NCBI GenBank assembly: GCA_001872725.1
Contig: MNWR01000032.1
Location: 1-49,649, forward strand
Direction: 5' to 3'
Length of the DNA: 49,649 bases
DNA from: Proteobacteria bacterium CG1_02_64_396
GTDB lineage: Bacteria; Pseudomonadota; MNWR01; CG1-02-64-396
The notes under the pieces are model-generated. The model did no database searches, was not told the origin of the DNA, and saw only the letters and a program-made list of their open reading frames with translations. A program made the position numbers and the translations under genes. Of this stretch, positions 27,309 through 30,167 are shown piece by piece (the first letter of the stretch is position 1; each line of letters opens with the position of its first letter).

Positions 27309-27359
27309 TTGCGTGAGCCAGATTTTGGGTTTTTTGTGCGATTGCTCTAAGCTCCGCCC

Positions 27360-27428
27360 CTCGCCGGATAGACCGGCGAGCTACATTCAGCGGGCCTCGT
27401 GCCCCCATGGTTCAAGGGGATTCCTGCC
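27360..27428 (+). promoter_or_regulatory. Structured leader of nadM, matching the nadV leader (candidate RNA regulatory element)
   Basis: Three adjacent hairpins lie directly before the start codon. Hairpin 1 is CTCGCCGG-ATAGA-CCGGCGAG (27360-27380). Hairpin 2 is GGGC-CTCGT-GCCC (27392-27404). Hairpin 3 is AGG-GGATT-CCT (27415-27425), 3 nt before the ATG, and holds GGGGATTCC, the only Shine-Dalgarno-like purines. CCCCC (27402-27406) could pair instead with GGGG (27416-27419), giving a possible on/off switch. The leader at 28687-28754 has the same plan with different stem bases. Confidence 0.6.
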
Positions 27429-28457
27429 ATGACTTGCGATTTCGACCTACTGGTTTTCGTAGGGCGGTTTCAGCCGTTCCACAACTCCCACGCCGCCATC
27501 GTCCAAACCGCCTTGACCAAGGGGCGTCAGGTGCTGGTGCTGATCGGCTCGGCCAACGCGCCCCGCTCCACCCGCAATCCGTTCACCGCCCGCGAGCGGG
27601 AGGTGATGATCCGCGAGTCCTTCCCCCTGATCGGGGAGCGGCTGGCCATCGCCCCCATCCGCGACTACCCCTACATGGACGACCTGTGGTTGCGTCAGGT
27701 GCAGGACGCGGTCAAAAGCGCCGCCCCCGATGCCCACCGCATCGGCCTGATCGGCCACCTCAAAGACGAAACCTCTTACTACCTACGGATGTTCCCGCAG
27801 TGGCAGCTGGTCGAGATGCCCAACATCGACGACCGCTCCTCCACCGAGATCCGCACCTTGCTTTTCGAGCCCCACGGCGAAGGGACGCGGATGGTGCTGC
27901 AATCGGCAGTGCCCGCCCCCTGCCTGACCTTCCTCACCGAGTTTCGCCGCCTGCCCCAGTTCGCGGCGCTGGTCGAGGAGTACCGCTTTTTGGCGGCCTA
28001 TAAAAAGCAATTTGCCGACTACCCCTACCCCCCGACCTTTGTCACGGTCGACGCGGTGGTGATCCACTCGGGCCATTTGCTGGTGGTGGAGCGCAAGGCG
28101 ATGCCGGGCAAGGGGATGTACGCCCTGCCAGGGGGATTTGTGGGGCAGGACGAACGGCTTCTCGACGCCGCGATTCGCGAACTCAAAGAGGAGACCCGGT
28201 TGAAGCTGCCGGCGCCGGTCCTCAAGGGGTCGATCAAGGGCAGCCGGGTCTTCGACGACCCCCACCGCAGCCAGCGGGGGCGGACGATTACCCACGCCTT
28301 CCACTTTGAATTCCCCGGCGGCCCCCTCCCCCCGGTAAAAGGGGGGGACGATGCCGCCAAGGCCAAGTGGCTGCAGCTGGCCGATTTTTATGCCCTGGAC
28401 GGCGCCATGTTCGAAGACCACTGGCACATCGTGACGGCGTTTGTGGGGGGGGTTTGA
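27429..28457 (+). CDS. nadM: Bifunctional nicotinamide-nucleotide adenylyltransferase / Nudix hydrolase
   Basis: 342 residues from the ATG at 27429. The N-terminal half is a NadM-type NMN adenylyltransferase making NAD+ from NMN and ATP: VGRFQPFHNSH (11-21, HxGH-like motif), ARSTRNPF-like RSTRNPFTARERE, and the SSTEIR motif (137-142). The C-terminal half is a Nudix ADP-ribose pyrophosphatase with a complete box GGFVGQDE...AIRELKEETRL (about 235-257). The same fusion is known in cyanobacteria and Francisella. An in-frame GTG at 27399 would read through the leader hairpins and adds no conserved residues. With nadV downstream it forms the two-step route nicotinamide to NMN to NAD+. Confidence 0.95.
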   Translation: MTCDFDLLVFVGRFQPFHNSHAAIVQTALTKGRQVLVLIGSANAPRSTRNPFTAREREVMIRESFPLIGERLAIAPIRDYPYMDDLWLRQVQDAVKSAAPDAHRIGLIGHLKDETSYYLRMFPQWQLVEMPNIDDRSSTEIRTLLFEPHGEGTRMVLQSAVPAPCLTFLTEFRRLPQFAALVEEYRFLAAYKKQFADYPYPPTFVTVDAVVIHSGHLLVVERKAMPGKGMYALPGGFVGQDERLLDAAIRELKEETRLKLPAPVLKGSIKGSRVFDDPHRSQRGRTITHAFHFEFPGGPLPPVKGGDDAAKAKWLQLADFYALDGAMFEDHWHIVTAFVGGV

Positions 28458-28482
28458 GGAGGAAAAGCGGTCGCCCGCCCTT

Positions 28483-28496
28483 CGACAAGCTCAGGG
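28483..28496. repeat. Dispersed repeat, left copy flanking nadV
   Basis: TCGACAAGCTCAGG. The inverse-oriented copy CCTGAGCCTGTCGA lies at 30163-30176, matching 13 of 14 bases. This core is familiar from dispersed intergenic repeats in many environmental bacteria. Confidence 0.5.
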
Positions 28497-28594
28497 TGCT
28501 CGGGAAAAACGGCTCCCACCACCCAAACGAAACGTTCATCTCGGGTGTAAGAGCCCGGTCCCCGGGCGACCCGCCATGCCGACATCGGCACAAA

Positions 28595-28669
28595 GGTGGA
28601 TGCGCTGCGCTTATCCACCCTACGCCATCGCGGCGGTTTTGTAGGGTGGATAAGCGCAGCGCATCCACC
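28595..28669. repeat. Large perfect inverted repeat (REP-like element)
   Basis: Two perfect 29-bp arms (28595-28623 and 28641-28669) around a 17-nt loop. Each arm is itself palindromic, GGTGGAT...ATCCACC. The motif GGTGGATAAGCGCAGCGCATCC is a common dispersed repeat in proteobacteria. It lies between nadM and the nadV leader. There is no T-run, but it could stabilise or end the nadM transcript. Confidence 0.85.
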
Positions 28670-28686
28670 ACCAAGCGTTCCATTCC

Positions 28687-28754
28687 GGCGACCGGATAGA
28701 CCGGCCGCCCTCATCCAGGGGTGTCTCACCCCTCTCATGTATGGGGATTCCATC
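28687..28754 (+). promoter_or_regulatory. Structured leader of nadV, matching the nadM leader (candidate RNA regulatory element)
   Basis: Same plan as 27360-27428. Hairpin 1 is GGCGaCCGG-ATAGA-CCGGcCGCC (28687-28709, one mismatch). Hairpin 2 is AGGGGTG-TCT-CACCCCT (28717-28733). Hairpin 3 is ATGG-GGATT-CCAT (28741-28753), 1 nt before the ATG. The distance from CCGGATAG to GGGGATTCC is 51 nt here and 52 nt in the nadM leader. Stem bases differ but pairing is kept, which points to RNA structure. The CCCC of hairpin 2 could alternatively pair with the GGGG near the start. Confidence 0.6.
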
Positions 28755-30167
28755 ATGAACACCTACAACCCGATCCTCGACACCGACTCCTACAAGGCCA
28801 GTCACTTCCTGCAATACCCCCCCAGCGCCCGTGGGCTGTTTGCCTACATCGAATCCCGGGGCGGGGTGCACGAGTCCACCCTGTTTTTTGGGCTGCAATA
28901 CATCTTGGCCCGCTACCTTTCCACCCCGATCACCCACGCCATGATCGACGATGCGTGCGATCTGCTCACCGCCCACGGCGAGCCCTTCAATGAGGCCGGA
29001 TGGCGTCTGGTGGTCGAGCGGCACGGGGGGCGGCTGCCGCTGGAGGTTCGGGCGCTGCCCGAGGGGAGCGTTGTCCCCACCGGCAACGCTTTGGTGACGG
29101 TGGAGTCGACCGATCCCGACCTTTTCTGGCTGGTCTCCTACGTCGAAACCATGCTGCTGCGGGTCTGGTACCCGATCACCGTGGCGACCCAGTCCTGGGC
29201 GATCAAGCAGGTCATCGCCCGCACCCTGGCGCAAACCAGCGACGACCCGGCAGGTCAGCTCGGCTTCAAACTCCACGATTTCGGGGCGCGGGGGGTATCG
29301 AGTTTCGAGTCGGCGGGGATCGGCGGGCTGGCCCACCTGGTCAACTTCATGGGGAGCGACACCGTCAGCGCTCTGCTCTGCGGCCGCGATTATTACGACG
29401 AGCCGCTGGCCGCCTTCTCGATTCCGGCGGCGGAGCACTCGACCGTCGTCGCCTGGGGGCGCGACGGCGAGGTCGATGCCTACCGCAACATGCTGACCCG
29501 CTTCGGTAAACCGGGGGCGCTGCTGGCCTGTGTTTCCGACAGCTACGACCTCTATGGCGCCATCGAGCACCTGTGGGGGGGAGCGCTCAAACAGCAACTG
29601 GTCGACTCGGGGGCAACGGTGGTGATCCGCCCCGACTCGGGCGATCCGGCCGAGGTGGCGCTCAAAACCACCGCCCTGCTCGACGCCGCCTTCGGCCACA
29701 CGGTCAACGGCAAAGGGTTCAAGGTGCTCAACCATGTGCGGGTGATCTACGGCGACGGCATCAACGAGCGCTCGATCCGAGAGATCCTGAGCACCCTGAC
29801 CGGGGCCGGATACGCTGCCGACAACATCGCCTTCGGCATGGGGGGGGCGCTGTTGCAACAGGTCGACCGCGATACCCAGCGCATGGCGATGAAGAGCTCG
29901 GCGATCTTGATGCCCGAGGGATGGCGGGAGATCTTCAAGGCCCCCATCACCGACCCCGGCAAAACCTCGAAAAAGGGGGTGCTGACCACCTGGCGGCACG
30001 AGGGGAGCGGCGCCTGGCAAACCGGTTTGCGGGGCGAATGCCCCGGCGCGGGGTGGGGAGACGCCATGCAAACGGTGTGGCGCGACGGGGCATTGCTGGT
30101 GCGGCAGAGCCTTGCCGAGATCCGGCAACGCTCTTGGATTCGCTGCCCCCCTGCCCGCTCATCCTGA
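28755..30167 (+). CDS. nadV: Nicotinamide phosphoribosyltransferase
   Basis: 470 residues from the ATG at 28755. It makes NMN from nicotinamide and phosphoribosyl pyrophosphate, the entry step of salvage in bacteria that use the Nampt/NadV route. Typical Nampt features are NPILDTDSYKASHFLQYP at the N-terminus, LHDFGARGVSS and ESAGIGGLAHLVNF, the AAEHSTVVAWG active-site His, and VIRPDSGDP. An ATG at 28737 would add six residues but lies in the leader. The last codons and the TGA fall in a dispersed repeat (30163-30176), so the natural C-terminus may have been altered. NadM, encoded upstream, uses its product. Confidence 0.95.
   Translation: MNTYNPILDTDSYKASHFLQYPPSARGLFAYIESRGGVHESTLFFGLQYILARYLSTPITHAMIDDACDLLTAHGEPFNEAGWRLVVERHGGRLPLEVRALPEGSVVPTGNALVTVESTDPDLFWLVSYVETMLLRVWYPITVATQSWAIKQVIARTLAQTSDDPAGQLGFKLHDFGARGVSSFESAGIGGLAHLVNFMGSDTVSALLCGRDYYDEPLAAFSIPAAEHSTVVAWGRDGEVDAYRNMLTRFGKPGALLACVSDSYDLYGAIEHLWGGALKQQLVDSGATVVIRPDSGDPAEVALKTTALLDAAFGHTVNGKGFKVLNHVRVIYGDGINERSIREILSTLTGAGYAADNIAFGMGGALLQQVDRDTQRMAMKSSAILMPEGWREIFKAPITDPGKTSKKGVLTTWRHEGSGAWQTGLRGECPGAGWGDAMQTVWRDGALLVRQSLAEIRQRSWIRCPPARSS

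Follow-up and report, generated by a model that had tools for sequence, protein, structure and literature searches.

A paired-hairpin RNA element at the translation start of NAD+ salvage genes in bacteria and their phages

A conserved cis-acting RNA element of ~55 nt is found at the translation start of nadM and nadV and, in one phage, of nadA as well. It is an element of NAD+ metabolism common to bacteria and diverse phages, and it consists of two hairpins. The first, H1, carries a 5-nt A-N-A-G-A loop (more broadly R-N-W-G-W) on a 3-bp inner stem, often followed by a 2x2 internal loop, and an outer stem. The second, H2, holds the Shine-Dalgarno GGA in its loop and adjoins or overlaps the start codon, its stem often reaching the ATG. 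The spacing from H1 to the Shine-Dalgarno is ~27 nt in most relatives versus ~50 nt in the two leaders of the window, by which we mean the whole stretch of 49,649 nucleotides analysed here. Judged from sequence comparison, the element probably controls the amount of NAD enzymes made. Our best overall reading, to which we give slightly less than an even chance, is that of a translational operator of NAD+ salvage genes whose binder would be a protein, most probably NadM-Nudix.

In the window, nadM (27429..28457, forward strand) encodes a bifunctional NMN adenylyltransferase/Nudix hydrolase of 342 aa (Pfam NUDIX E=3.5e-18, CTP_transf_like E=9e-12; NCBIfam NF003788 above cut-off), and nadV (28755..30167, forward strand) encodes a nicotinamide phosphoribosyltransferase of 470 aa (Pfam NAPRTase E=6.7e-58, NAMPT_N E=1.8e-25; NCBIfam PRK09198). 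An earlier note on this DNA had described twin structured leaders in front of these genes, and direct reading confirms its landmarks. The shared 14-mer CCGGATAGACCGGC begins at 27364 and 28692, CATTCAG or CATCCAG lies at +20 in both leaders, and GGGGATTCC follows at 27416 (+52) and 28743 (+51), 4 and 3 nt ahead of the ATGs at 27429 and 28755. The 13-base core of the 14-mer, CCGGATAGACCGG, has exact forward copies at these two sites only in the 2.94-Mb genome from which the window comes. The window's class is represented by this single genome in the set searched, and hence is a deep, little-sampled lineage. The gap between the two genes also holds a large near-perfect inverted repeat, GGTGGATGCGCTGCGCTTATCCACCCTAC...GTAGGGTGGATAAGCGCAGCGCATCCACC (28593-28671), probably a mobile repeat.

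All hairpins of the two leaders lie on the forward strand and are recovered by folding. H1 of the nadM leader (27360..27380) reads CTCGCCGG-ATAGA-CCGGCGAG, and its loop and stem are conserved with covariation. H1 of the nadV leader (28687..28709) reads GGCG-A-CCGG-ATAGA-CCGG-C-CGCC. H2, which can be read directly and which covaries among relatives, is AGG-GGATT-CCT at nadM (27415..27425) and ATGG-GGATT-CCAT at nadV (28741..28753), each with the Shine-Dalgarno in the loop; an outer CATGG/CCATG pairing extends the former to the start codon, and an outer CATG/CATG takes in the start codon of the latter. These two hairpins, numbered 1 and 3 in the earlier note, are as described there and are strongly conserved in relatives with compensatory changes. 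The hairpin between them fared differently: GGGC-CTCGT-GCCC at nadM (27392..27404) and AGGGGTG-TCT-CACCCCT at nadV (28717..28733) do fold in both window leaders, but they are specific to the window's lineage and absent from all relatives inspected. The two leaders are more than a local repeat, and the middle hairpin lies outside the conserved element. Because this hairpin is a lineage-specific insertion, the suggested switch, in which its CCCC would pair with the Shine-Dalgarno, finds no support in conservation.

To define the element independently of the window, we built a covariance model, R1, from 27 sequences with the window excluded. On the window's own genome, R1 returned the two leaders as its best two matches (27358-27409 at nadM and 28686-28743 at nadV; E = 2.9e-4 and 4.3e-4), the next standing at 0.24. 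The covariation score was 0.59 versus 0.21 for shuffled alignments with the same 27 sequences and 0.68 versus 0.21 with 141 sequences; none of 500 shuffles attained the covariation score, and 10 of 11 pairs in the 27-sequence alignment show compensatory double changes. An alignment anchored on the loops, not fitted to structure, and reduced to 62 sequences below 80% identity keeps pairing at 94-100% in the inner three H1 pairs and at 98% in the three innermost pairs of H2; double changes are numerous. RNAalifold, applied to the 141 sequences, returned the same two hairpins, including the 2x2 internal loop in H1. Among 55 non-redundant leaders, predicted folding gave H1 a probability above 0.5 in all 55 and H2 in 52, and the Shine-Dalgarno always fell within H2. 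When the best hairpin upstream of the Shine-Dalgarno hairpin was taken with no loop preset, the pentaloop R-N-W-G-W was recovered in 195 of 210 leaders (chance ~1/32), closed by G-C, C-G or A-U. Only ~6 bases outside the Shine-Dalgarno are near-invariant, while stems and spacer vary freely. Covarying stems, a fixed position, a coherent gene set and a wide phylogeny, the marks of a structured cis-regulatory RNA, are all present.

How far does the element extend beyond the window? Most of the 80 bacterial nadV loci that we compared have a hairpin with an AYAGA loop upstream of nadV, then a second hairpin around the Shine-Dalgarno, and the pair recurs before nadM, ~1.1 kb upstream of the nadV copy. 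A structural search of all loci gave 90 matches on the sense strand, 4 on the opposite strand and 9 with a reversed-loop control. The element stands ahead of nadM-Nudix and nadV in Xanthomonadaceae, Burkholderia, Cupriavidus, Acidithiobacillus, Thiobacillus and Thiocystis. Its presence at nadV follows the neighbouring gene: it is found in 60 of 60 bacterial loci with an adjacent nadM and is absent from 19 of 20 without one, the exception being L018, where a remnant of nadM is present and the loop is AAAGA. Of the nadM copies that our first loop pattern did not catch, most are loop variants at the same position (AAAGA, AGAGA, ACTGA). Solitary bacterial nadV or nadM genes are without the element. 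Pseudoxanthomonas 3HH-4, with two nadV genes, has it solely at the one linked to nadM, and another genome (G349), with two nadM genes, solely at the one adjoining nadV. The best eight matches of R1 on 399 Pseudomonadota genomes were all nadM or nadV leaders. Among 13 whole genomes with nadV and without nadM-Nudix, 12 gave no R1 match and the 13th only one of E=0.037 within coding sequence. Weak genome matches (L094-L101, L105, L124, L137-L140) were judged to be chance, to lie in coding positions or to lack a downstream start. An element-like hairpin of 29 bits, GCCACGG-GACAGAC-CCGTGGC, possibly also chance, was seen at ~1501-1571 of a Luteibacter MAG contig (L135), before an unidentified gene that opens with a signal-peptide-like sequence. 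In two Stenotrophomonas loci, a cobalamin riboswitch lies directly 3' of nadV (L049, 4427-4658; L068, 4529-4758).

The twin elements recur, in an AT-rich form, on IMG/VR phage contigs that encode nadM and nadV; named phages of Ruegeria, Phaeobacter, Rhodobacter, Xanthomonas and Synechococcus also have one at each gene. Where nadM and nadV are unlinked in phages, each gene keeps its own element. IMG/VR was scanned with the RNA patterns alone, followed by a structure filter, which yielded 98 distinct structured elements: 49 at nadV, 33 at nadM and 16 at other genes, one of them nadA. Most of the 15 remaining others stand at the head of nadM operons, with a small phage gene between leader and nadM; ~4 of the others look like chance, involving terminase coding sequence or an isolated small ORF. 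Six altered loop motifs gave 0 structured matches versus 109, a one-sided control since the contigs had been preselected for the natural motif. The nadA case is a phage contig (L845) on which nadA, nadM and nadV follow one another and each is preceded by an element (nadA Pfam E=1e-83). No ANAGA hairpin was present at the leaders inspected of KVP40, ICP1, phiCbK, RB16 and the Stenotrophomonas phages BUCT608 and DLP_6. The central claim of the earlier note, a structured NAD-related RNA element distinct from the riboswitches NAD+-I and NAD+-II, thus withstood each outcome named beforehand as fatal to it: homologues lie upstream of other NAD genes, the genome and phage scans showed no random intergenic scatter of a plain repeat, and covariation is strong.

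Rfam 15 has no family that matches the window. A scan of the window and 14 representative bacterial and phage loci gave no match to the element even at permissive E-values; the check for NAD+-I and NAD+-II proposed in the earlier note was likewise negative for the element at gathering and permissive thresholds, and in the leader region the permissive scan produced sub-threshold matches only, mostly to the inverted repeat at 28593-28671. NAD+-I and NAD+-II are different RNAs (PMC7749635, PMC8632094). NAD+-I (the nadA motif) is likewise a cis-acting RNA with translational control ahead of NAD genes, and our element too precedes one phage nadA; NAD+-I, however, has tandem aptamers and extensive conserved bases, and its covariance model does not match the element. 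NAD+-II (the pnuC motif; PMC7749635, PMC8632094) resembles the element as a cis-acting RNA before an NAD-related gene for which occlusion of the ribosome-binding site has been proposed, but it forms a pseudoknot in Streptococcus pnuC leaders. We found no Rfam match to it and no association of the element with pnuC, the downstream genes being nadM, nadV, nadA and heads of NAD operons. A 2022 survey of viral NAD+ systems reports NadV in every NadM phage, and the word riboswitch appears nowhere in it (PMC9503650). Among openly accessible journal papers, those on how phages rebuild NAD+ contain no hint of the element. The element is therefore undescribed in the RNA family library and the papers searched, and may have been described elsewhere.

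What binds H1? Among 143 NadV rows arranged on a NadV tree, a strict H1 at nadV accompanies the element-type NadM in 90 of 106 rows and occurs in 0 of the 37 rows that lack this NadM; the strict pattern imposed a G-C closing pair and misses C-G, A-U and GUAGU variants, and the discordant rows include such pattern misses (for example L001, L022, L194, L197 and L215). Independent pairs on the NadV tree gave 6.4 in the same direction and 0 in the opposite (p ~0.03), and 5 changes on the NadM tree suffice to explain the element label, versus 9 on that of NadV. Phages whose NadM is divergent (~35% identity) show GUAGU as the loop at nadM and lack H1 at nadV; the NadV of these phages is close to that of element-bearing phages. 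Loop sequence and NadM lineage, the AUAGA and GUAGU types, may have coevolved. The co-occurrence of the nadV element with one NadM lineage points to NadM as an RNA-binding autoregulator, with linkage as a confounder: since nadM usually adjoins the nadV leader, recombination could swap the two together, and no functional link would be needed. Two further observations speak against NadM as the binder: H2 hairpins are also seen on their own, with no H1, in phages encoding other NadM lineages, and bacterial nadM genes without nadV have lost the element while NadM is retained.

The main rival to a protein binder is a compact riboswitch, in which H1, the spacer and H2 together would create a binding pocket for NAD+, NMN, nicotinamide or ADP-ribose and no protein is needed; the ligand would stabilise H2 and close the Shine-Dalgarno when NAD+ is plentiful. 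A self-contained sensor would fit an element that accompanies the operon in bacteria of several proteobacterial classes, in their phages and in cyanophages, ahead of NAD genes only, nadA included. We nevertheless consider it unlikely, although well worth keeping in view, for an element with so few near-invariant bases and such free change in stems and spacer, whose presence at nadV tracks the lineage of NadM and not of NadV, and which solitary nadV or nadM genes do without. A kissing or pseudoknot contact of the H1 loop with H2 was sought by eye, and no conserved complementarity was seen. Distinctly less probable is a binder other than NadM, either NadV or a conserved host RNA-binding protein (CsrA-like, Hfq or a ribosomal protein). 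Hairpins with GGA in the H2 loop do resemble generic operator sites, and paired-hairpin CsrA/RsmA sites share with the element two hairpins, one of which covers the Shine-Dalgarno and has GGA as part of its loop. The loop survey nevertheless rejects a CsrA/RsmA target: ANGGA does not occur in both loops, the H1 loop being ANAGA, and the GG beside it belongs to the stem, with which it covaries to CG, AG or CC. Moreover, genome and phage scans revealed no second class of target gene, and genomes that lack the element still encode NadV.

That the hairpins might not regulate at all, H2 serving as a start-site hairpin for robust initiation and H1 as a stabiliser of the 5' end, seems very unlikely to us. 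By eye, promoter-like TTGAC(A/G) and a TA-rich -10 do put H1 near the mRNA 5' end in several Xanthomonas and roseophage nadM leaders, but a stabiliser would need neither an invariant loop, nor a copy inside the operon before nadV, nor restriction to NAD genes. A DNA operator or spreading repeat is scarcely credible. The CCGG-N5-CCGG of the window is palindromic, but stem sequence varies freely while pairing is kept, so that covariation already contradicts a DNA reading; the asymmetric loop is specific to one strand (90 forward, 4 reverse, 9 control) and lies at a nearly constant distance from the ATG.

A protein binder, with NadM as first candidate, is favoured because invariant bases are few and because the element is linked to the NadM lineage. 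Regulation at initiation is the natural reading since the predicted hairpins place the Shine-Dalgarno in the H2 loop, and the earlier suggestion of a translational mechanism is in this respect well supported. H2 would likely be opened for the ribosome or closed against it, as set by whatever binds H1, and each NAD+ synthesis cistron would likely be tuned separately to NAD+ status; the proposal accommodates repression as well as activation. Tentatively, the ligand of H1 may be the NadM-Nudix enzyme, which would control translation autogenously by binding the operator in its own transcript and, in trans, that of nadV, by analogy with the DNA polymerase of T4. That enzyme, gp43, is believed to recognise a structured site close to the Shine-Dalgarno in its own message (PMC3014915). 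Here too a structured site lies at the Shine-Dalgarno of the candidate regulator's own gene, with H1 ~27 nt upstream; the element differs from the gp43 operator in its loop, its two hairpins, its several target cistrons and in having an NAD enzyme, NadM, as candidate binder. Against the proposal, NadM is not known to bind RNA, and a literature search found no paper on such binding. NrtR, an ADP-ribose-responsive repressor, likewise regulates NAD genes and has a Nudix domain distantly related to that of NadM, but it is a DNA-binding transcriptional repressor.

We thus nominate the NadM enzyme as a possible RNA-binding regulator. In its fullest form, which we regard as less likely than not, a moonlighting NadM-Nudix would sense the NAD+/ADP-ribose state and repress or release translation of nadM and nadV (and nadA) through the paired-hairpin operator, and phages would carry this circuit with their NARP2-like genes for rebuilding NAD+. 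In that case, the counter-defence of these phages may be adjusted to the NAD+ depletion caused by host immunity. The element opens to direct testing the question of how NAD+ salvage is adjusted, in bacteria and in phages, while NAD+-depleting defence is active, and several element-bearing phages belong to phage-host pairs that have been isolated and can be cultured, among them Ruegeria phage DSS3P8, Rhodobacter phage RcXuper and Xanthomonas phage LucasX. In the phage operons headed by the element, a small protein family of unknown function, phrog_12218 (...NHTDGCGW...), recurs as first cistron between element and nadM (L159, 1598; L311, 2370; L322, 2197; L476, 456), and may belong to the NAD pathway.
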